Origin: Caenimonas sedimenti
Lineage (GTDB): Bacteria > Pseudomonadota > Gammaproteobacteria > Burkholderiales > Burkholderiaceae_C
Assembly (NCBI RefSeq): GCF_007833165.1
Contig: NZ_VOBQ01000011.1
Span: 124,001 to 188,000, forward strand
Direction: 5' to 3'
DNA: 64,000 nucleotides
In this document: positions 27,767-39,057 of the stretch, one piece after another
Numbering within the stretch: position 1 is the first letter of the stretch
How the letters are laid out: every line of letters begins with the position of its first letter
Program-made: the position numbers and the translations under genes
Notes under the pieces: model-generated
What the model was told of the DNA's origin: nothing
Databases searched by the model: none
The model's input: only the letters and a program-made list of their open reading frames with translations

Positions 27767-28249
27767 ATGGATAAATTCTTGCTGCATCAGCAGGTGGTGA
27801 AGCGGCTCGCCGAAGACCTGCTGCAAGCCGAGCAGGCCGTGCGGGCGGCCTATGAAACGGCGACCCACGAAGAAAACATCGCTGAAAACAAGTACGACAC
27901 ATTGGGACTCGAAGCCGCCTACCTGGCCACTGGCCTGGTTCGGCGCACCGAAGCCATCCGCCTGGCGCTGGCCGATTGGCGGAAATTCCGCCCGCATCCC
28001 TACGATGCCCGCAAAGGTGTACAGCTCGGCGCGCTGGTCTGCCTGATGGATTCCGGCGGCCAGCGGCAATACCTCTTTCTTGGCCCGGATGGGGGCAGCA
28101 TGAAGTTGGACATCGGCACTCAGCTCGTCCAGGTCATCAGCAGCGAAGCCCCTTTGGGCTGGGCCATGCTGGGCAAATTCGAGGGGGATGAGGTGTCGAT
28201 CGAGATCGGGCCGTTGCAAAAGCGGTTCGAGGTCCTGCGGGTGCATTGA
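27767..28249 (+). CDS. GreA/GreB-like transcription elongation factor
   Basis: A 160-residue protein with the two-part Gre layout. The N-terminal coiled coil (about 1-75) is rich in Glu/Gln and has an acidic tip around HEENIAENKYD. The C-terminal FKBP-like domain contains SSEAPLGWAMLGKFEGDEVSIEIG, matching the SPLGRALLGKxxGDEV block of GreA. Gre factors stimulate transcript cleavage by RNA polymerase. This one is shorter at the N-terminal tip and probably a stand-alone GreA/B paralogue. No operon partner was seen. Confidence 0.8.
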   Translation: MDKFLLHQQVVKRLAEDLLQAEQAVRAAYETATHEENIAENKYDTLGLEAAYLATGLVRRTEAIRLALADWRKFRPHPYDARKGVQLGALVCLMDSGGQRQYLFLGPDGGSMKLDIGTQLVQVISSEAPLGWAMLGKFEGDEVSIEIGPLQKRFEVLRVH

Positions 28250-28391
28250 ATCGTGAACGAGAAGTGGGGCCCACGGAGAACCAGTCGACGGAGACCTCTC
28301 GGGCCGCGCGCTGATCGGTATTCGAGCCGGCGTCCGACATGTCGCCGGCTCCCAGGCCCTAGTCTCCAACGACACTCTTGGGAGACCCGAC

Positions 28392-28604
28392 ATGCCCAGC
28401 GACAACAAGCTCGATCCGGCCGGTGAACGTGCCGAGGCCACCGAGGCCATGGAGTCCACACCGATCAGCGGCAAGGAGCACGAGTACCGGGCTGACGGGG
28501 ACCATCGCCCCCGCCAGGACGCGTCGGATCCAGAGGCAGCGCCCGAGGTCGGCGTCGAGACCGAGCGTCACATCAGCGAAGGCATCCCGGGCGCGGGCCG
28601 GTAG
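28392..28604 (+). CDS. Small acidic hypothetical protein
   Basis: A 70-residue hydrophilic, acidic, probably disordered protein (MPSDNKLDPAGERAEATEAM). GGGAGA lies seven bases before the ATG, which supports translation. No family was recognised and no operon partner is clear. It lies between the GreA-like gene and rdgC. Confidence 0.6.
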   Translation: MPSDNKLDPAGERAEATEAMESTPISGKEHEYRADGDHRPRQDASDPEAAPEVGVETERHISEGIPGAGR

Positions 28605-28668
28605 CTGCGGAGACCTGTTTCGTCGGCTTTGGGGCGAGGGCGGACGCCGGCCCTAGAATGCGCCCCTC

Positions 28669-29610
28669 ATGTTCAAGAACGCCTGCTACTTCCGCATCGC
28701 GGACGGCTTCGAGCTGCCCCCGCTTCCCGCCTTGGAAAAGGCGCTCCAGAAAACCCGCTTCGTTCCCACCGGACCGACCCAAGCCGAGTCCAGTGGCTGG
28801 GTGCCGCCACGCGGTGCGAAGCACTCCCACCTCGCAGAGCTGGTCGGCGGCCAGCTGATCCTGAAGCTGTGCACGGAGAAGCGCGCCGTGCCCTCGTCGG
28901 CGATCAAGGCGGGCGTCGAAGAGAAGATCGAGCGCTACAAGAAGGAAACGGGCCAGGAGCGCGTGGGCGCCAGGGCCAAGAAGGAATTCAAGGAGGAGGT
29001 GCTGCTGGACCTGCTGCCGCGCGCCTTCACCAAGCGCGCCAACACCTTGCTCTGGCTCGCGCCGGAGCAGAAGCTCCTGGTGGTCGACAGCGGCACCCTG
29101 GCCGGCGCCGACCGGATCGTCTCGGCCTTGCTGGCCGCGTTGCTCGAGATCCCGGGTGTCGGTTCCGCGCTGGACTTGCAGCTGATCCAGACCGAGTTGT
29201 CGCCATCGGCGGCGATGGCGCATTGGCTCAGCACGCGCGAGGCCCCCTCCAACTTCACGATCGACCGCGACTGCGAGCTGAAGACGCCGGACGACGAGAA
29301 ATCCAGCGTCCGCTACGCGCGCCACACCCTCGACATCGACGAAGTCGCGCAACACATCGCAGCCGGCAAGGTGCCGACGCAGCTCGCGATGACCTGGAAC
29401 GACCGTGTCTCGTTCGTGTTGAGCGACACGGGCCAGGTACGCCGCATGAAGATGCTGGACGTGGTGATGGAAGGCGTGGACAAGCCGGGGAAGGACGAAG
29501 ATGGCTTCGACGCGGACGCGGCCATCCTCACGGGGGAATTGGCGGGGTTGCTGCCTGATCTGCTGGATGCGCTGGGGAGCGACTCTGTAGCGGTGCCGGC
29601 TGGGGGGTGA
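28669..29610 (+). CDS. rdgC: Recombination-associated protein RdgC
   Basis: RdgC is a nucleoid-associated, ring-forming DNA-binding protein that limits RecA action. The 313-residue length and the opening MFKNACYFRIADG fit the family, as do SHLAELVGGQLILKLCTEKRAVPSSAIK and TKRANTLLWLAPEQKLLVVDSGT. The gene stands alone, between a small acidic protein gene and a PilT-like ATPase gene. Confidence 0.94.
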   Translation: MFKNACYFRIADGFELPPLPALEKALQKTRFVPTGPTQAESSGWVPPRGAKHSHLAELVGGQLILKLCTEKRAVPSSAIKAGVEEKIERYKKETGQERVGARAKKEFKEEVLLDLLPRAFTKRANTLLWLAPEQKLLVVDSGTLAGADRIVSALLAALLEIPGVGSALDLQLIQTELSPSAAMAHWLSTREAPSNFTIDRDCELKTPDDEKSSVRYARHTLDIDEVAQHIAAGKVPTQLAMTWNDRVSFVLSDTGQVRRMKMLDVVMEGVDKPGKDEDGFDADAAILTGELAGLLPDLLDALGSDSVAVPAGG

Positions 29611-29672
29611 GCCGGCGTGCTGGGAGAATGGTGCCTCGCGCCCATGCGATCCCTCCCCTGAAAAAGCCAAAC

Positions 29673-30833
29673 ATGCCAACTGAAGTCAATGAAGTCGCCC
29701 TGCCACAGAACAAGCGCTCCGCACTCGCAACGACGCTCTGGGCATGCCAGCACTTCGCCGCCGGCATCACCGATCTGCTCGTTCACGAAGGGGAAGTGAT
29801 CCGCGCGAAAACCGCCGCGGGCGTCGTCCCGCTTTCGCGTGTGGGGAACCTGCCAAACGCCGACCTGGTCATCCACGCCGACGAGATCAAGCACTTCCTG
29901 GCCAGCTATGTCGACAACATGCCGACAACGGCGAGCGCGAACGAATACTGGGAACGCCACATCCAGCCGCGGCTGGATCGCCAGGAGTCGATCAACCGGT
30001 CGCTGCCGATTCCGCCGGCGAGCAAGAACCAGGAACCCGCCCAGCTGCGGATCTCCCTCTTCCTTCATGCTCGCGGCCGGCTGGCCATGTCCATCCGTCT
30101 GGTGACGCAACCGACCGACCTGGAATCGGTCGGCTTGCCGGAACCGCTGGTCGACCGGATCAAGACCAACCCGAGAGGGTTGATCATCATCACGGGCGCC
30201 ACCGGCTCAGGCAAGACGAGGACAGCCTATTCGATCCTCCAGTACCTGAATCACCATTCGCAAGGGCACATCCTCACGATCGAGGATCCGATCGAACTCA
30301 ACATCAAGTCCGCTGGGTGCGTCGTGACCCAGCGCGAGGTGGGGTACGACACCGTGTCCTTCTATGAAGGCCTCCTGGCGGCCATGCGGCAGGCCCCGGA
30401 AGCCGTCCTGGCCGGCGAAGTGCGGGACCAGGACGCGGCCCAGACCGCCATCCTGGGCGGTGAGTCCGGCGCCTTGATGCTGGTGACCACGCACGGCAGC
30501 TCCATCGTCGGGACCATCAAGCGCATCCTGGCATTGTCCGGCGGCAGCGACGCCTTCCGTTCCGTCCTGGCCGGCAGCCTCATCGGGATCGTGCGCCTCG
30601 ACCTGGTTGCGCACACGGACGGCAAGCAGTTCTCGCTGGTGAACGAGACCTTGATGGGGACGACCACGGTTGCCCAGGCATTGCAGGCTGGCGACTGGGG
30701 CGCGGTGGAGCAGATCTGCTCCAGGCAGACCCCGACGCCCGACTTCTTTCCGATGAAGCCGCACATCGACGCCCTGGTGAAGCAGAAGCGGGTCTCCCTG
30801 GATGCCGCGAGCCGGCTGCAGTACGCAAGGTAG
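29673..30833 (+). CDS. PilT-like secretion/retraction ATPase (orphan)
   Basis: Type II/IV secretion-type ATPase of 386 residues. The N-terminal region (about 1-150) is unlike standard PilT, but the motor domain is clear: Walker A GATGSGKT at 175-182, Asp box LTIEDPIE at 202-209, TQREVGYDT at 219-227, Walker B-like AVLAGEVRD at 244-252 and a His box VTTHGSS at 271-277. No pilus or secretion genes are near. The ATG at 29673 is chosen because the preceding 22 codons look non-coding. It may be a PilT/PilU paralogue or a DNA-transfer motor; the partner is unknown. Confidence 0.85.
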   Translation: MPTEVNEVALPQNKRSALATTLWACQHFAAGITDLLVHEGEVIRAKTAAGVVPLSRVGNLPNADLVIHADEIKHFLASYVDNMPTTASANEYWERHIQPRLDRQESINRSLPIPPASKNQEPAQLRISLFLHARGRLAMSIRLVTQPTDLESVGLPEPLVDRIKTNPRGLIIITGATGSGKTRTAYSILQYLNHHSQGHILTIEDPIELNIKSAGCVVTQREVGYDTVSFYEGLLAAMRQAPEAVLAGEVRDQDAAQTAILGGESGALMLVTTHGSSIVGTIKRILALSGGSDAFRSVLAGSLIGIVRLDLVAHTDGKQFSLVNETLMGTTTVAQALQAGDWGAVEQICSRQTPTPDFFPMKPHIDALVKQKRVSLDAASRLQYAR

Positions 30834-30838
30834 CGAAA

Positions 30839-31838
30839 CTACGCCTGCGCAGGCTCGACCAGGATCTTCCCCTGCCGCTCTCCGGCTGCCGCCGCAGCCA
30901 CTGCCTCTTTGATTCGCGCGACGTCGTAGGTCGCCTGGATGGCGGTGCTCAGCTTGCCCGAGGCAATCAGGCCTGCCAGTTCGGTGAGCAGCGCGACCTG
31001 CTTGGCCGGCGGCGTGGTGCGGAACCACTTGGCGAGCCAGAACCCCTTGAGCGAGACATCGCGGAACACCAGCTCGCGCGGCGACACCATGCACGGCTCA
31101 CCGCTCAGCGCGCCGTAGTTCACCACCGTGCCGCTTTCGGCCAGGCACGCGGCCAGGCGCATCGTGGCCTTGCCGCCGACCGCGTCGACGCCCAGGTTGA
31201 TCGCGGCGCCGCCGGTCGCGGCCTTCACGCGTTCGGCGAGATCGTCGCCGTCGACCAGCACGACGTCACCGCCTTGCGCCTGTACGCTGGCCACCGCTGA
31301 CTCGCGCCGCACGACGTTCACCGTCTTGAAGCCGCGCAACTTGGCCAGCTGCACCAGATAGCTGCCGACGCCGGAGTTGGCGCTGTTCTGGATCACCCAG
31401 TCGCCTGCCTGCAGGCTCACGAAAGTCGCTGAGCAGCAGCGAGGCCGTGGGCGGGTTCACCGTCAGCATGGCGAGCTGCTTCGCGTCGGCCTCGTTGGGC
31501 AACGGGATCAGGCGCGCGGCCGGCACCACGACGTGCGTGGACCAGGTGCCGGAGCCCGGGGGCAGCAGCACGGTCTGGCCGACGGCCGGCCCGGGCGTGC
31601 CGGGCGCGAGCTCGACGACGCGGCCCACACCTTCGCTGCCGCCCACCGCGGGCAGCGGCGGCAGCATGCCGTAATGGCCGGTGAGCGTGAGCACGTCGCC
31701 GGGGTTGATGGGGGCGGCGAGCACGGCCACCAGGGCCTGGCCTTCGGCCAGCGCGGGGCGGTCGAACGGCACGGCGGAAATCACGTCCTGCGGCACCGGG
31801 CCGCGCTGGGTGTATTGGGCTTTGAGCATGCGGGTCAT
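30839..31838 (-). pseudogene. Frameshifted zinc-less MDR quinone oxidoreductase
   Basis: The two parts of one medium-chain dehydrogenase/reductase lie in different frames. The N-terminal part (from ATG 31838 to about 31424) holds NPGDVLTLTGHYGMLPPLPAVGGSEGVGRVVE. The C-terminal part (about 31422-30839) holds AGDWVIQNSANSGVGSYLVQLAKLRGFK, the NADPH-binding fold. The join reads LLLSDF / VSLQAGDW, and one extra T in the TTT run at 31422-31424 (AAA on the plus strand) accounts for the shift. It may be a real frameshift or a sequencing error. Divergent from a LysR gene. Confidence 0.85.
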
Positions 31839-31927
31839 CGCGTTGTCTTTCGTCGCCGTTCACCGGCGCTGGTTGGGATGCATGAATGCTAGGGAAAACC
31901 CATTGCCGCGTGAATCCATCGCAATGC

Positions 31928-31941
31928 GCAAATTCATTTGC
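31928..31941. promoter_or_regulatory. Palindrome in the divergent LysR promoter region
   Basis: GCAAATTCATTTGC is a perfect 14-base palindrome (6-base arms, 2-base centre) between the divergent quinone oxidoreductase and LysR genes. It lies 37 bases upstream of the LysR start. It is a plausible operator for that regulator. Confidence 0.45.
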
Positions 31942-31978
31942 CGATCCGGCAACAATGCGCGCAGGAGGGCCGCGCGCC

Positions 31979-32896
31979 ATGGACAAACTCAGGGCCTTGC
32001 AATACCTGATCAAGGTGGCCGACACCTTGAGCTTCTCGGGCGCGGCCCGGGCCTTCGGCGTGCCGGCCTCGTCGATCTCGCGGCGCATCTCCGACCTGGA
32101 GGAGGAGCTGGGCGTCGAGCTGCTGCATCGCACGACGCGCACCGTGCGCCTGACCGAACTGGGGGCGCTGTACCTGGAGCAGGTGCGCGCCGGCGTCTCG
32201 CGGCTGGACGACGCGGAAGAACTGGTCGGCCAGCGCAGCAGCACGCCCAGCGGCACGCTGCGCATCAGCACCATGCCCTCGTACGGGCAGTTGCTGCTGC
32301 TGCCGGCGCTGGAGGATTTCAGCGACCGCTATCCCGGGATCGTGATCGACCTGCACCTGAGCGATTCGCTGGTGGACCTGGGGCGCGACCAGATCGACCT
32401 GGCGATCCGTGGCGGGCCCCAGCCGCAGGACCGCGTGGTGGCGCGCAGGCTGGATCCGAACCGGTTCATCCTGGTGGCTTCGCCGAAGTACCTGGCCGAG
32501 CGGGGGACGCCGAAGACGCTGGAGGACCTGGAGCTGCAGGGGCACAGCGCCCTGTACTACCGCGGGCCGAATGCGGTGATCAAGTGGCAAGGGCAGGAAG
32601 ACGGCGCGTGGCGCGAGCTGGCGGTGCCGGCTGGGTTCATCAGCAATGATGGGGTGAGCCTGGTGGCGATGGCGCGCAAGCACAGGGGGCTGGCGCTGTT
32701 GTCGGAGTGGGGGTTGCGGGATGCGCTGGCGAGCGGGGAGCTGGTGAGGGTGGAGCTGGAGCAGCCGGTGGCGGTTGGGAGGGGGAGGGAGGCGGGGATT
32801 TATCTGCTGTATTTGCAGGCGAGGTATCAGGTGCCCAAGGTGAGGGTGGCGGTGGAGTTTTTGGTGGGGCGGCTCACGGGAGGTGAGGCTGCTTAG
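31979..32896 (+). CDS. LysR-family transcriptional regulator
   Basis: LysR regulator of 305 residues. The N-terminal HTH contains MDKLRALQYLIKVADTLSFSGAARAFGVPASSISRRISDLEEELG; the C-terminal effector domain is standard. The ATG at 31979 starts exactly at the LysR N terminus and has AGGAGG upstream. It is divergent from a quinone oxidoreductase, which it probably regulates. The C-terminal codons are unusually G-rich but in frame. Confidence 0.92.
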   Translation: MDKLRALQYLIKVADTLSFSGAARAFGVPASSISRRISDLEEELGVELLHRTTRTVRLTELGALYLEQVRAGVSRLDDAEELVGQRSSTPSGTLRISTMPSYGQLLLLPALEDFSDRYPGIVIDLHLSDSLVDLGRDQIDLAIRGGPQPQDRVVARRLDPNRFILVASPKYLAERGTPKTLEDLELQGHSALYYRGPNAVIKWQGQEDGAWRELAVPAGFISNDGVSLVAMARKHRGLALLSEWGLRDALASGELVRVELEQPVAVGRGREAGIYLLYLQARYQVPKVRVAVEFLVGRLTGGEAA

Positions 32897-33125
32897 GAGT
32901 TGTCGGCGACGCGCGTCTCCTCGGCGACGCAGCGCGGACGTCTTGGGGGGTCGGAAGAGGACATTGGGCCGCCAAGTCTCCAGTTACTGCTTCGCAGCGG
33001 TTGCAGTCGGTCGCGGCAAGTCGCCGGATGTCCCCTTTCGGCCGATACCAGCCCGCAACGGGGGCAGAATGTCCGCTGGGACCGCAGAACAACGCGGCGA
33101 GCGCCCGTAGCCCAAGGGAGGGTCC

Positions 33126-34949
33126 ATGAAGGTCGTCAAACTTTCGATCACCAGCTATCGCGGCGTCAAATCCGCCGAGCTCCTGTTCGAGGGGCACACG
33201 CTGTTCGTCGGATCCAACAACGTCGGCAAGAGCACCATCTGTGAAGCGCTCGACTTGGCGCTGGGCCCGGACAGGCTGAACCGCACTCCGGCGATCGACG
33301 AGTTCGACTTCTACAACGCCCAATACCTCGAGCCGGCGGCGGAGGGAGAGGAGCCCAAACCCATCCCGCTCCGCATCGAGGTCGTGTTGGTCGAGCCCAG
33401 CGAGGCGGTGCTGAACCTGTGCGGCGGGCACCTGGAGTTCTGGCACGTGGAGGAGCGACGGGTGCTCGGGGAGGCGGAGGCCGACCTCGCCAACCCGCCG
33501 ACGTCGATCCCTTGCCTGCGCCTGGAGACGATCGGCGCCTACAACCCGGAGGAGGACGAGTTCGAGGCGAAGACGTATTTCTCGCGCAGCCCCGACGCCG
33601 ACGAAGGCGAGCTCACGCCGGTCTCACGCAAGATCAAGCGGGAGTTCGGGTTTCTCTACCTTCGCGCGCTGCGCACCGGCTCGCGCGCGCTGAGCCTCGA
33701 GCGCGGGACGCTTCTCGACATCATCCTGCGCACCAAAGGCATCCGGACGACGCTCTGGGAGAAGTCCATCCGGCGCCTGCGCGAGCTCGACGTCGAGTCC
33801 GACGCCACCGAGATCGCGCCGGTGCTGCGCGACATCGAGCAGCGCCTGGCGCGCTACATCCCCCTCGAAGCGCCGGGCAACGCCACGAAGCTGCACGTCT
33901 CCGAGCTCACGCGCGACCACCTGCGCAAGACGATGTCGTTCTTCCTGGCGCTGTCGGCCGACCAGGACCACGTCCCGTTCGCGCACGCCGGAACGGGCAC
34001 CCTGAACACGCTCGTCCTCGCGCTGCTGTCGGTCATCGCGGAGCTCAAACCCGACAGCGTGATCTTCGCGATGGAGGAGCCGGAGATCGCCGTGCCCCCG
34101 CCCACCCAGCGGCGCATCGCGCACTACCTGCTCACCAATACGAGCCAGGCCTTCGTCACCTCGCATTCGCCCTTCGTGATCGAGCGCTTCGAGCCCTCGC
34201 ATACGCTGCTGCTGTCGCGACAAGCGGGCGTCGTGTCGTCGCAGAAGGTGTCAGACGCCTCCGGGCTCACCGACAAGGAGTTCAAGCAGTTCGCGCGCTG
34301 GGGCCTATGCGAATGCATGCTCGGCAAGGGCGCCATCGTCGTGGAAGGGCTCACCGAGTTCCACGCGCTGCCGGTGGCCGCCGCGCGCATGGAGGCCGAA
34401 GACTCCGCCGCCACCGGCGGCCAGCCTCTCGACATCCTCGGAGCCACGTTCTTCCACGCGGGCGGCGAGTCGAACATGCCCAAGTTCGGCAAGTTCTTCA
34501 AGACGTTGGGGCTCAAGACGTTCGGCTTCTACGATCTGGACAAGAAGCGCTCGGAGAAGACGAAGGCCGCGCTCGCCGCGAGCTACGACGTCGACTTCGA
34601 GACCGAACACAAGGGCTTCGAGAACCTGGTCGCCCAGGAGATGCCCGCCGGCACGCTGTGGAGTTTTCTCGACCAGCTGCGCGACGGCGGCGAGGGGGTG
34701 GAGCTTGGCATCCCGGCGTCGAAGCCGGCCGACGACGCGGCCGTGCGCAAGCTCGCGGCCGTGGCCCTGCGCAGCGGGAAAGGCGCCGGTTGGGCGGCGC
34801 GGCTCTTCGAGGAGTGCGACTACGCGGACTTGCCGACGTCGGTCATGAAGTTCCTGTCCCAAGTGTTCTCCGCCATGCCCAAGATCAAGGAAAAGCCGGA
34901 TCCCGACGACGAAGCCGCGACCGCGGCGGACGCGAGCGACCCGGCCTAA
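33126..34949 (+). CDS. OLD-family ATPase/TOPRIM nuclease, GajA-like
   Basis: A 607-residue protein with an N-terminal ABC-type ATPase and a C-terminal TOPRIM nuclease, the class 2 OLD architecture found in Gabija GajA. Walker A is GSNNVGKST (29-37), the signature-like segment is HAGTGTLNTL (287-296), Walker B is SVIFAMEEPEI (311-321) and the H-loop is TSHSPF (345-350). TOPRIM motifs are EGLTE (407-411) and FYDLDKK (468-474). It is about the length of known GajA proteins. The next gene, eight bases on, is a UvrD-like helicase, so this is very probably the first gene of an anti-phage operon. Confidence 0.85.
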   Translation: MKVVKLSITSYRGVKSAELLFEGHTLFVGSNNVGKSTICEALDLALGPDRLNRTPAIDEFDFYNAQYLEPAAEGEEPKPIPLRIEVVLVEPSEAVLNLCGGHLEFWHVEERRVLGEAEADLANPPTSIPCLRLETIGAYNPEEDEFEAKTYFSRSPDADEGELTPVSRKIKREFGFLYLRALRTGSRALSLERGTLLDIILRTKGIRTTLWEKSIRRLRELDVESDATEIAPVLRDIEQRLARYIPLEAPGNATKLHVSELTRDHLRKTMSFFLALSADQDHVPFAHAGTGTLNTLVLALLSVIAELKPDSVIFAMEEPEIAVPPPTQRRIAHYLLTNTSQAFVTSHSPFVIERFEPSHTLLLSRQAGVVSSQKVSDASGLTDKEFKQFARWGLCECMLGKGAIVVEGLTEFHALPVAAARMEAEDSAATGGQPLDILGATFFHAGGESNMPKFGKFFKTLGLKTFGFYDLDKKRSEKTKAALAASYDVDFETEHKGFENLVAQEMPAGTLWSFLDQLRDGGEGVELGIPASKPADDAAVRKLAAVALRSGKGAGWAARLFEECDYADLPTSVMKFLSQVFSAMPKIKEKPDPDDEAATAADASDPA

Positions 34950-34957
34950 GGGCGGCG

Positions 34958-36730
34958 GTGGCCATCGATCCGAACTGCCCCAAGCGCGCGAGCGTCGTCG
35001 CGTGCCCTGGCCACGCCCTCGTGCTTGGAGGGCCGGGCAGCGGCAAGACGACCGTCGCCTTGCGCAAGGCCCTGGCGCGGATCCAAATCGGCATGCGGCC
35101 GGGGCAGAAGGTGCTGTTCCTGAGCTTCTCGCGGGCGGCGGTGACGCGCGTGCTCGACGCCGCGCGGCTGGAAGTGCCCAAGAAGCAACTGTCCCTGCTC
35201 TCGGTGCAGACCTTCCATGCGTTCTTCTGGAGCGTGCTCAAAACCCACGGATACCTGCTGGGCGCGCCCAAGCGGCTGGACCTCCTGTTGCCGCAGGACG
35301 AGAAGGCGATGTGCGGCGGCATCAAGCGCGGCGACGAGGGCTGGAACGAGTGGGTGGCCGAGAGGGAGCGGATGTTCCGCGAGGACGGCCGCGTGGCGTT
35401 CGACCTCTTCGCGCCCAACGCCGCGGAGCTTCTGGCGCGCTGCCGGCACCTTCCCAGCCTGTTCGGCGCCGCCCATCCGCTCATCATCGTCGACGAAGCG
35501 CAGGACACGGGGAGCGACGCCTGGCGCTGCGTCGAGCTGCTCGCTCCCAACGCGCAGATCCTGTGCCTGGCGGACCTCGAGCAGCAGATCTACGCCGACT
35601 TCCTGCCGGGCGTCGGCCCCGAGCGCGTGGTCGAGATCCGCGCCGCGCTCGATCCGTTCGAAGTCGATCTCGGGAGCGACAACGGCCGTAGCCCCGACAC
35701 CGAGATCTTGGCCTTCGCCAACGACATCCTCACCGCCCGCCCGCGAGGGAAGCCTTACAAGGGAGTGGCGCAGATCGGATACGAGCCGAAGACCGTCAAC
35801 TGGAATGCGCTGCTGCGCCGGGCAATCGGCGCGGCGATCAAGGCGGCCGAGTCTTCCAGGGGCGCGCGGCCCAACACGATCGCGGTTCTCGCCGACACCA
35901 CTCGCAACGCCTTGAAAGCCTCCAACGCGCTCAACGCCGTCGACGCGCCGGACGGAAAGCGCGTCCCGCACAAGCTGCATTTCGACGAGGCCGAGGCTCT
36001 GCTCACCGCCAGGCTTGCGGCGTTTCTGCTCGAGCCCAAGGACCCAGCGCGGGAAGACGACGACGTGGCCACGTGCATTGAGCTGCTCGCCAACGCGAGG
36101 CGCGCCACCGGCACCGGCAAGGCAGAGGTCGCGAACTATCTGCTGCGCGCGCAGCAGATCAGGGCGGGTAAGCCTCCGAAGGTGAACATCGTCAAAGCCT
36201 TCCGCGCGGCGCTCGCGGCGCTTCGGAGCTCGCCATTCACCGGAGACCCGCCGGCGGACTGGCTCACTGCCAAGCGCGCGCTGCGCGAGTCCGGCGAAGC
36301 CGCGCTGCAGCGCGCGGCACGACAGCTCGACTTCATGGTGGCCTTTCAGCGCGGACACCGAATCTCAGCGGCCCTTTCCGCGGAGTGGCTCCGCGACGGC
36401 GCCTACACGCGCGCGCGGGCCGCTCTGGACAGCGCGCTCGCGCAGGAGCAAATCCTCGACGGAGCCGAGCCGCCGCGTGGAGTTCAGGTGATGAACTGGC
36501 ACAAGGCCAAAGGCAAGCAGTTCGACGCCGTGATCCTGCTGCGGGAGGGCCGATTCGGCGACGGGGGGCTCGAATCGAGCTTCATCTGGCGGGGCGACCA
36601 GCCGCCCTACCCGAAGAGCCGCAGGCTTGTCCGCGTCGCCGCCACCCGAGCTCGCGACGGCCTGATCATCTTGAACCCCAATTGGCCCGCGTGCCCTCTG
36701 CTCAAGGGTCACATCCTTCAAAAGGGATAA
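34958..36730 (+). CDS. UvrD/Rep-superfamily helicase, GajB-like
   Basis: A superfamily 1 helicase of 590 residues starting with GTG at 34958, with AAGGG just upstream. Motif I is GGPGSGKTT (24-32), Ia FLSFSRAA (54-61), Ic VQTFHAF (83-89), II IIVDEAQDT (176-184), III ILCLADLEQQIY (201-212); motif V reads MNWHKAKGKQFD and motif VI RRLVRVAATRA. All motifs needed for ATPase and helicase action are present. It is longer than the typical GajB (about 500 residues). Its position behind the OLD nuclease supports a Gabija-like system. Confidence 0.85.
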   Translation: MAIDPNCPKRASVVACPGHALVLGGPGSGKTTVALRKALARIQIGMRPGQKVLFLSFSRAAVTRVLDAARLEVPKKQLSLLSVQTFHAFFWSVLKTHGYLLGAPKRLDLLLPQDEKAMCGGIKRGDEGWNEWVAERERMFREDGRVAFDLFAPNAAELLARCRHLPSLFGAAHPLIIVDEAQDTGSDAWRCVELLAPNAQILCLADLEQQIYADFLPGVGPERVVEIRAALDPFEVDLGSDNGRSPDTEILAFANDILTARPRGKPYKGVAQIGYEPKTVNWNALLRRAIGAAIKAAESSRGARPNTIAVLADTTRNALKASNALNAVDAPDGKRVPHKLHFDEAEALLTARLAAFLLEPKDPAREDDDVATCIELLANARRATGTGKAEVANYLLRAQQIRAGKPPKVNIVKAFRAALAALRSSPFTGDPPADWLTAKRALRESGEAALQRAARQLDFMVAFQRGHRISAALSAEWLRDGAYTRARAALDSALAQEQILDGAEPPRGVQVMNWHKAKGKQFDAVILLREGRFGDGGLESSFIWRGDQPPYPKSRRLVRVAATRARDGLIILNPNWPACPLLKGHILQKG

Positions 36731-37031
36731 CTTCGGGGTCGCCGACCGGCGAGCAACCGCTCCTAGACCCAATACAGGAGCGCAGGCGATGATCATCGAA
36801 CCGAAGGACGTTCAAGTCGACTCGGGCTCGGCGGGAAAGAGCGCCGTCCGCGCGCCGCCGGCGCGGTCTAGATGCTTCTCGCGCAGCTGCGCGCAAGCCG
36901 GTGGAGCTTGCGACTTCCTCGTCGAAGTCCACGCCTCCCTTCTCCAACTCCTCCCTCGCCCCTTCGGGCGTCCAACCATGGTCTTGGTGCAGCGCGCCCG
37001 GCTCGTCCCGCTCGGGCGGTCGCACATCCAT
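36702..37031 (-). CDS. Doubtful reading frame opposite the gajB-like 3' end
   Basis: A 109-residue frame from ATG 37031 whose first half reads like protein (QDHGWTPEGAREELEKGGVDFDEEVAS) while the second half is Arg-rich and low-complexity. It has no clear ribosome binding site, overlaps the helicase gene tail on the opposite strand and lies opposite a competing plus-strand frame (ATG 36789 with AGGAG eight bases upstream). It could be a decayed gene fragment. It is listed so that the 881-base gap is not left blank. Confidence 0.25.
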   Translation of the reverse strand: MDVRPPERDEPGALHQDHGWTPEGAREELEKGGVDFDEEVASSTGLRAAAREASRPRRRRADGALSRRARVDLNVLRFDDHRLRSCIGSRSGCSPVGDPEVIPFEGCDP

Positions 37032-37252
37032 AGATCCGTGCTGGTCCGCTTCCGGCCAAAGTGCGGTCGTCCAGCTACACGTCGCCGAACACCTGCAATC
37101 AGTCTGAAGGCGTCATTCAATTGCTGGACAGGCTGCGGGTATGGATGTCCGCTCTCGGCCAAGGCAGCCTTGCAGCCCGTCACCCGTCCCGCAACCCCTC
37201 CCCTTCTCCCCATCGCCCCATCCCCGACCCGTCCCCGCCGATTTCTGGGGCG

Positions 37253-37390
37253 GCTGCGATGTTCGGCCTGAAGCCGGAGCGCGCGTAGCGCGCATCGTGA
37301 TCTGACTTCCGTCAGTTGTTTGAACGGAGTGGTTGCGCAGCAAGCACGCAGTGAGTTCTGACGGACCGGCTTCAGGCCGAACATCGCAGC
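37253..37390. repeat. Long inverted repeat, possible MITE-like or REP-type element
   Basis: Two perfect 25-base arms (37253-37277 and 37366-37390) face each other across 88 bases. A second inner pair, TCCGTCAG (37308-37315) and CTGACGGA (37358-37365), directly abuts the right arm. A short direct repeat GAAGCCGGAGCG occurs at 37270 and 37391. A folded RNA or DNA cruciform is likely. No transposase was found. Confidence 0.7.
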
Positions 37391-37497
37391 GAAGCCGGAG
37401 CGAGCCGAAGGCGTAGCGCAGGCCGCCACAGTATGAGGCGGGGGTGGGTGTGGGATGGGGCGAAGGGGTGGCTACAAGAGGTGGCGCGCAAACAAAG

Positions 37498-37517
37498 AAG
37501 CGCGCCGCGGCGCGCTT
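37498..37517 (-). terminator. Terminator-like hairpin downstream of the aldehyde dehydrogenase operon
   Basis: AAGCGCGCCGCGGCGCGCTT is a perfect 20-base palindrome. On the minus strand it is followed by CTTTGTTTG, and it lies 95 bases past the aldehyde dehydrogenase stop. It would end transcription of the molybdenum hydroxylase operon. Confidence 0.7.
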
Positions 37518-37520
37518 TCC

Positions 37521-37549
37521 TGGATCCCAGCCTTCGCTGGGATGACAGC
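37521..37549. repeat. REP-like hairpin
   Basis: ATCCCAGC and GCTGGGAT form an 8-base stem around CTTC, inside TGGATCCCAGCC...GATGACAG. This is a common intergenic REP form in proteobacteria. A related, less perfect copy (CTGGATCCCCACG ... CGGGGATGACGG) follows at 37564-37605. Confidence 0.65.
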
Positions 37550-37611
37550 CAAACCTCAAAGCCCTGGATCCCCACGTACGCTTCGCTCCTCACGCGGGGA
37601 TGACGGCTGAA

Positions 37612-39057
37612 CTAGACGTTCATGACCGCGACAGCCCGCGCGTTCAGATACGCCTCCACCGCCTCCGGCCCGCCTTCGGACCCATACCCCGAATCCTTGA
37701 CGCCACCAAACGGCATCTCGGCCGAAGGCATCGCCGGCATGTTGATCCACAGCATGCCCACTTCCACCCGGCGCGCCAGCAGGTCAGCGTTCTTCAGCGA
37801 CTTGGTGAAGGCATAGCCAGCCAGGCCGTACGGCAGGCGGTTGGCTTCGGCGATCGCGTCTTCCAGCTTCTCGAAGCCGCGGATGCCGGCCATCGGTCCG
37901 AAGGGTTCGTCGTTGAAGACCTTGGCTTCCAGCGGCACGTCGGTCAGGATGGTGGGTTGCCAGAAGTTACCCGTGTCGCCGATGCGCGCGCCGCCGGTCA
38001 GCACCGTGGCGCCCTTCTCGATGGCGTCCTTGGTGAACTCCGCCATGGCGGTCAGGCGGCGCGGGTTCGCCAGCGGGCCCATCGTCGTGCCTTCGGCCAG
38101 GCCGTCGCCCACCTTCAGGCCTTGCGCCTGCTTGGACAACGCCTGGGCGAATTCATTTTTGATGCTCTCGTGCACCAGGAAACGCGTGGGCGAGATGCAG
38201 ACCTGGCCCGCGTTGCGGAACTTGGCGGCACCCGCGGCCTTGACGGCCAGCGCGATATCAGCGTCCTCGCAGACGATCACCGGGGCGTGGCCACCGAGTT
38301 CCATCGTCACGCGCTTCATGTGCTTGCCGGCCAACGCGGCCAGCTGCTTGCCCACCGGCGTGGAGCCGGTGAACGTGATCTTGCGGATCACCGGGTGCGG
38401 AATGAGGTACTCGGAGATCTCGGCGGGGTTGCCGTAGACCAGGCCCAGCACGCCGGGCGGGATGCCGGCGTCGGCGAAAGCGCGGATCAGCGCGGCGGGG
38501 CCCGCCGGGGTTTCTTCCGGCGCTTTCACCAACATCGAGCAACCGGCCGCCAGTGCCGCGCCGACCTTGCGCACCACCTGGTTGATCGGGAAGTTCCAGG
38601 GCGTGAACGCGGCGACGGGGCCCACCGGGTCCTTCAGCACCATCTGGCGCAGCGCCAGGTTGCCGCGCGAAGGCACGATGCGGCCGTAGACGCGGAAACC
38701 CTCTTCGGCGAACCACTCGATGATGTCGGCGGCGGCCATCGCCTCGCCCTTGGCTTCCACCAGCGGCTTGCCCTGTTCCTGCGTGATCAGGGCGCCAATG
38801 TCGGCCGCGCGCTCGCGCATCAGGCCGGCGGCCTTGCGCATGATCTTGCTGCGGTCGGCGGCCGTCATGTCGCGCCAGGTTTCGAAGCCCTTCTGCGCCG
38901 CGGCCAGCGCGCGGTCCAGGTCGGCCTTGCCGGCGTGGGCGACGCGGCCGATCTCCTTGCCCGAGGACGGGTTGAAGACGGCGAGCGTGCGGCCGTCGGC
39001 GGCGTCTTGCCATTCGCCGGAAATGAAGAGCTGGGTGGAGGGGTAGGAGGTCGTCAT
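37612..39057 (-). CDS. NAD(P)-dependent aldehyde dehydrogenase, succinate-semialdehyde type
   Basis: Aldehyde dehydrogenase of 481 residues. The start at 39057 begins [20 protein letters not shown]; a longer frame upstream overlaps the next gene and is ignored. Motifs are [14 protein letters not shown], the GSTPVGKQL cofactor segment, catalytic Glu in [10 protein letters not shown] and catalytic Cys in [14 protein letters not shown]. The pattern and length match GabD-type succinate-semialdehyde dehydrogenases. It is the last gene of an operon with a molybdenum hydroxylase, so it may oxidise a related aldehyde product. Confidence 0.92.

Follow-up and report, generated by a model that had tools for sequence, protein, structure and literature searches.

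Gabija is a common, known defence system, reported from more than 15% of sequenced genomes, and its two proteins GajA and GajB assemble into a 4:4 complex (PMC10781630). According to the available parts of the published accounts, GajA of Bacillus cereus is a DNA-nicking enzyme subject to inhibition by nucleotides (PMC8136825; PMC13304284), and B. cereus GajB displays no helicase activity, either alone or in the complex (PMC10681800). The Gabija of Pseudomonas aeruginosa acts on phages that make proteins barring RecBCD from DNA ends, and defence by the system of strain PA14 requires both GajA and GajB (PMC12407980). Here we describe a locus of this kind in a 64,000-nt stretch of DNA from Caenimonas sedimenti (NCBI RefSeq assembly GCF_007833165.1, contig NZ_VOBQ01000011.1, positions 124,001 to 188,000), hereafter called the window, which is part of contig C48 in a 5.9-Mb genome. 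With a probability that we put at roughly 0.86, the locus is a complete two-gene Gabija operon, horizontally acquired at a site of variable content that is flanked by a LysR gene and an aldehyde dehydrogenase gene, and working as an anti-phage nuclease complex.

The first gene of the pair, gajA (33126 to 34949, plus strand), starts with ATG and encodes a class 2 OLD-type nuclease of 607 residues with an N-terminal ABC ATPase and a C-terminal TOPRIM domain; the stretch GGGAGGG at 33116 to 33122 on the same strand is its likely ribosome-binding site. A Walker A motif (VGSNNVGKST), the sequences GTGT, EEPE and SHSP, and, for TOPRIM, the motifs EGLTE and FYDLDKK were found at the places where an earlier sequence-only reading of this DNA had put a nuclease of this class. 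The second gene, gajB (34958 to 36730, plus strand), begins 8 nt after the gajA stop with a GTG codon and encodes a UvrD-like superfamily 1A (SF1A) helicase homologue of 590 residues, again in agreement with that reading. Both frames are open. GajB holds a Walker A motif (GGPGSGKTT) and a VDEAQD box of the DExQD type, the latter unvarying across 20 aligned GajB sequences, and we take GGPGSGKTT, LSFSRAA, QTFHAFF, IIVDEAQD, LADLEQQIY, NGRSPDTE, MNWHKAKGKQFD and RVAATRAR to be the sequences that fit the SF1A motifs. Pfam domains are AAA_15, AAA_21 and OLD-like_TOPRIM in GajA and UvrD-helicase in GajB. The predicted GajB model, with a mean predicted local distance difference test score (pLDDT) of 84.3, matched UvrD and GajB folds and was most like UvrD. 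The GC content of gajA (0.669) and gajB (0.686) is close to that of the window (0.678), and the pair is not atypical in this respect.

Searches with PADLOC family models, the means by which the sequence-only reading had proposed to check its assignment to Gabija, bore that assignment out. GajA matched the GajA model PDLC00086 at 719.7 bits over residues 1 to 603 of 607, the second-best GajA model reaching 102 bits, and GajB matched the GajB model PDLC00141 at 649.3 bits over residues 7 to 582 of 590, followed by PDLC00104 at 596 bits. The E-values for the two best matches were 8.5e-217 and 1.1e-195, so that these near-full-length matches are far above chance, and GajA and GajB models are matched in adjacent genes, as PADLOC demands of Gabija. 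A better match of the helicase to housekeeping UvrD or Rep had been named as an outcome that would speak against the assignment; the NCBIfam models TIGR01075 (UvrD) and TIGR01074 (Rep) gave 48.1 and 45.6 bits, respectively, far below their cut-offs of 1144.45 and 951.45; by these cut-offs gajB is neither of the two housekeeping genes. No Gabija model was among the NCBIfam matches for the window pair, nor among those for two other Gabija pairs, and this silence is therefore uninformative. Judged by family model and gene order, the window pair is a Gabija system.

To describe the relatives of the pair, 33 loci were found in the GTDB species collection by means of six peptide patterns taken from the window GajA, a procedure biased to near relatives. 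By record name, 26 of these 33 loci are betaproteobacterial; among the rest are Acidithiobacillus, Bradyrhizobium, Pseudomonas, Muricauda and Sulfopaludibacter. Among plasmids, the GajA search gave 77 records at E<=1e-5, other GajA clusters among them, and the GajB search 18 records at E<=1e-20. Nine relatives were found on viral contigs, and none among the annotated phages searched. The distribution is thus patchy and includes mobile DNA. The 33 GTDB loci, 6 of 14 fetched plasmid stretches and the 9 viral-contig loci make up the 48 relatives that were analyzed in detail. Pairing is strict: gajA and gajB stand together in all 48, with a spacing of -20 to +23 nt in 47 of them. The remaining one, on plasmid p3 of Robbsia andropogonis (L088:8001-11579), has both genes in one annotated frame of 1192 residues, joined close to nine consecutive C at the gajA end; the joined frame may be a true fusion, or result from slippage or a sequencing error. 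The two proteins also co-vary: over 46 relative pairs and the window, the distance matrix of GajA correlates with that of GajB at r = 0.987, a value that none of 2000 permutations reached and that is uncorrected for shared ancestry. Such a correlation is compatible with a 4:4 complex of GajA and GajB. An all-against-all comparison of the flanking open reading frames (ORFs) of at least 70 residues, from the 33 GTDB loci and the window, revealed no conserved third gene. Three clusters in total reached three loci. One of them occurs in 6 of the 33 GTDB loci, and all three of its members checked by Pfam are tyrosine integrases; the other two occur in three loci each, and the one member checked of each is a transporter and a YhcG-type nuclease, respectively. 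Downstream of gajB, loci L020, L023 and L026 each have members of both the integrase cluster and the YhcG-type nuclease cluster (the L023 member of each was checked by Pfam).

The window pair resembles the Gabija of B. cereus VD045 in its two-gene order, in the combination of an OLD ATPase-TOPRIM protein with a UvrD-like partner, and in similarity at the profile level. In a search of solved structures at E<=1e-3, the single window GajA and GajB sequences did not reach the VD045 chains (8SM3_A and 8SM3_B). Profiles built from 25 GajA and 20 GajB sequences, the window copies included, reached them weakly (E = 5.3e-9 for GajA and 1.6e-7 for GajB); the GajA profile matched the class 1 OLD protein 6p74 and PtuA more strongly than B. 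cereus GajA, and the GajB profile matched PcrA and UvrD more strongly than B. cereus GajB. These comparisons place the window pair on a Gabija branch that is distant from the branch whose structures have been solved. The model PDLC00086 takes copies from plasmids of P. aeruginosa, Rhizobium etli and Paenibacillus, and from Muricauda and Sulfopaludibacter, at 707 to 844 bits. It gives only 174 bits for the P. putida copy and 148 bits for that of R. leguminosarum, and the Enterococcus, Acinetobacter and Rhodococcus copies were assigned to other GajA clusters. Three plasmid copies matched by PDLC00086 and by PDLC00141 or PDLC00104 (P. aeruginosa p12939-PER, R. etli pRetIE4771e and a Paenibacillus rhizovicinus plasmid) share with the window gene order, similar lengths and near-full-length matches, at 36.8 to 41.7% GajA identity to the window; closer GajA copies, of up to 75% identity, occur in other Betaproteobacteria.

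The described PA14 Gabija, which we compared by its description and not by its sequence, has the same two-gene plan. Since DESQ is the motif described for its GajB (PMC12407980, in the part available) and DEAQD is found in all 20 GajB sequences aligned here, the PA14 system may lie on a branch other than that of the window. The class 2 OLD proteins of Burkholderia pseudomallei and Xanthomonas campestris (6NK8 and 6NJV, TOPRIM domains solved) have a C-terminal fold that, including its helical part, is like that of the window GajA. Class 1 OLD proteins (Thermus scotoductus 6P74 and P2 Old) stand alone, whereas a helicase gene follows in the window and in every one of the 48 relatives; a stand-alone class 1 OLD protein is ruled out for the window by the presence of this partner gene.

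The helicase of the window was said by the sequence-only reading to be about 100 residues longer than typical GajB and hence perhaps to mark a divergent subtype. It is indeed longer than the 494-residue protein of B. cereus VD045 (PMC10681800, in the part available), and its model probably has a longer helical accessory region than B. cereus GajB. Nevertheless, the length offers no evidence of divergence, because GajB measures 567 to 606 residues in 46 of the 47 relatives in which its end could be set, and because the PADLOC GajB profiles listed range from 369 to 725 positions. The exception has 291 residues and lies near a contig end (L032); a cut copy (L126) was left out of the count. All the same, a large sequence distance separates it from the B. 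cereus proteins; here "it" is the window helicase.

The point at which the branch departs from published work is the nuclease active site. In class 2 OLD proteins, the available text of Schiltz et al. (2019) assigns E400, D455 and D457 to metal A and E404, T506 and E508 to metal B, adds K562, and states that the metal-site side chains are absolutely conserved in the class (PMC6755086). The likely counterparts in the window GajA, taken from alignment and from motif order and spacing and not from superposed coordinates, are E407 for E400, E411 for E404, D470 for D455, D472 for D457, E499 for E508 and K552 for K562. The site is complete for the TOPRIM glutamate (E407), the DxD motif (D470-x-D472) and the lysine (K552). 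Where BpOLD, the B. pseudomallei protein, has T506, two positions ahead of the metal-B glutamate, the window GajA has a glycine (Gly497) instead of threonine. Counterparts of E407, E411, D470 and E499 are present in all 48 relatives. The second aspartate of DxD is present in 12 and missing in 36, among the latter the three plasmid copies named above, which otherwise have the active-site pattern of the window, and threonine at the T506 position is found in none of the 48, glycine standing there in 43. The lysine has a counterpart in 43 of them; in four the pairwise match stops before the position, and one (L092) shows an alanine, read as lysine in a multiple alignment of 40 sequences. In the wider alignment, some other GajA have the DxD motif; examples are P. 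putida with DGD and Enterococcus with DND.

As far as these alignments indicate, then, the active site described as invariant for class 2 OLD proteins is only partly retained in the branch, and the window GajA keeps DxD. By analogy, a missing aspartate of this motif need not mean lost function, because in the class 2 OLD study changing D457 alone to alanine (D457A) made no discernible difference (PMC6755086). In the archaeal protein Cran1, a leucine occupies the place expected for the first aspartate of the motif (PMC12796447). It is a tentative thought, which we hold to be rather doubtful, that the PDLC00086 branch represents a widely occurring Gabija lineage with a nuclease that acts through a reduced metal site (most of the examined members show D-x-(Q/K/M/A) for DxD and glycine for threonine) and has a modified cutting or nicking mechanism, perhaps nicking and not processive degradation, in which DxD was regained in the sub-branch of the window. 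In the literature searched, which did not cover subscription papers and was available in part, we found no statement on the loss of DxD in a Gabija branch, no report of Gabija in Ramlibacter, and no laboratory work on this branch, the branches of the PA14, Escherichia coli and lactic acid bacteria systems not having been placed. If the branch defends with an incomplete DxD and no threonine, the two-metal model derived from BpOLD would need loosening, and the B. cereus results could not be transferred to it without a test; the branch would be a natural experiment on such a site. This branch-wide change of the TOPRIM site is the sole part that a specialist may not expect. The single locus is ordinary, and its value is that of one more intact betaproteobacterial member of a branch with little direct similarity to the structure-solved system.

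The pair stands among metabolic genes, as had been noted from the sequence. Upstream are a zinc-type alcohol dehydrogenase gene and a LysR-type regulator gene (31886 to 32896, plus strand), which forms the left flank of the site, and downstream, on the right flank, is an aldehyde dehydrogenase gene (37612 to 39047, minus strand), part of a block conserved in the genus. We searched 60 genomes of this genus, which we take to be Ramlibacter; 45 of them are at least 90% complete with at most 5% contamination. The aldehyde dehydrogenase stretch matched in all 60, with E printed as 0 in 57, and gajA was found in two, the window's own genome and one of the 59 others (G064). In the latter it lies elsewhere, its surroundings having in common with the window, apart from the two genes themselves, no more than three weak matches to other regions. 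A close LysR orthologue was found in a single congener (G032) among the matches listed; there, LysR and the dehydrogenase that precedes it show 89 to 90% identity to those of the window, and the LysR gene is followed by a YgjP-like peptidase gene, by incomplete type I restriction-modification pieces in which HsdM leads straight into HsdR, and by an AbiEii-type gene (L068:7317-11697, G032:C212). This cargo is apparently an alternative one of the defence type, partly decayed. The site is regarded as variable because restriction and AbiEii genes follow the same LysR gene in G032; judged from these gene matches, the spot holds different defence-type cargo in two species. The G032 assembly is fragmented and its aldehyde dehydrogenase copies lie on contigs other than that of the LysR gene, and in the compared congener stretches that hold the dehydrogenase gene, the DNA 3' of it has no match to the operon side of the window. 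The empty site anticipated in relatives did not turn up in clean form among the genus genomes, G032 carrying other cargo instead. Horizontal acquisition of the locus is supported by the presence of gajA in one of 59 other genomes, the different cargo after LysR in a congener, and the relatives on plasmids and viral contigs.

If the pair works as its studied homologues do, from which the complex, its regulation, DNA cleavage and phage defence are carried over, GajA would oligomerize through its ATPase half and carry the TOPRIM nuclease, and GajB would dock on this oligomer. In the healthy cell the nuclease would be held off. Infection would release it, as has been suggested for other Gabija systems, through falling nucleotide pools or through phage DNA ends to which RecBCD has no access, and the released nuclease would nick or cut the phage DNA.

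Two other accounts of the locus have to be weighed against a working defence operon. An OLD nuclease-helicase pair of Gabija descent might now serve DNA repair or genome maintenance; a non-defence role has been published for an archaeal OLD protein (PMC12796447, in the part available), the helicase model folds most like UvrD, and the locus lies among metabolic genes. However, the search of the 60 genus genomes detected no gajA in 58, and it is therefore not a conserved maintenance gene, and both the occurrence of relatives on plasmids and viral contigs and the integrase cluster near 6 of the 33 GTDB loci tell against such a role, which we consider highly improbable. Alternatively, the copy might be intact in sequence and here be unexpressed or inactive. 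The split of the nearby alcohol dehydrogenase gene over two frames, a sign of some decay (or of a sequence error) in the neighbourhood, could be taken in this sense, yet both frames of the pair are open and of normal length, the catalytic residues are kept and the family match spans almost the whole proteins, so that a silent copy is improbable too.

The gap of 881 bases that follows gajB (36731 to 37611) does contain repeats, as the sequence-only reading had remarked, but they do not signal an insertion, as it had further suggested. The gap includes a dispersed hairpin-like intergenic repeat of about 280 bases at 37208 to 37488 (no strand assigned), outside the Gabija pair, as indicated by its sequence and its copies in the genome and in congeners. 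This stretch and short pieces in the gap resembling repetitive extragenic palindromes gave 24 other matches in the genome at E<=1e-5 (25 with the self-match), and congeners hold copies as well. The 280-base repeat occurs seven more times in the genome, in full or in part, at 83 to 91% identity, and in more diverged form in congeners; from its hairpin-rich sequence it resembles a non-autonomous dispersed element. Comparison of the upstream with the downstream gap gave no significant flanking repeat (the best local score was 14; in the null, the median was 13 and the 95% point 16). An insertion marked by the gap repeats was therefore rejected: these are dispersed elements that do not flank the operon, whose GC content is not atypical.

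Two further observations concern the genes upstream of the site. The zinc-type alcohol dehydrogenase gene (30839 to 31838) has its N and C domains in separate ORFs, and is either a broken gene or the product of a sequence error. Before it, at 27767 to 30833, genes for a GreA/GreB-like protein, RdgC and a PilT/TraJ-like ATPase stand in a row, of which the first two have their matches at different places in congeners.
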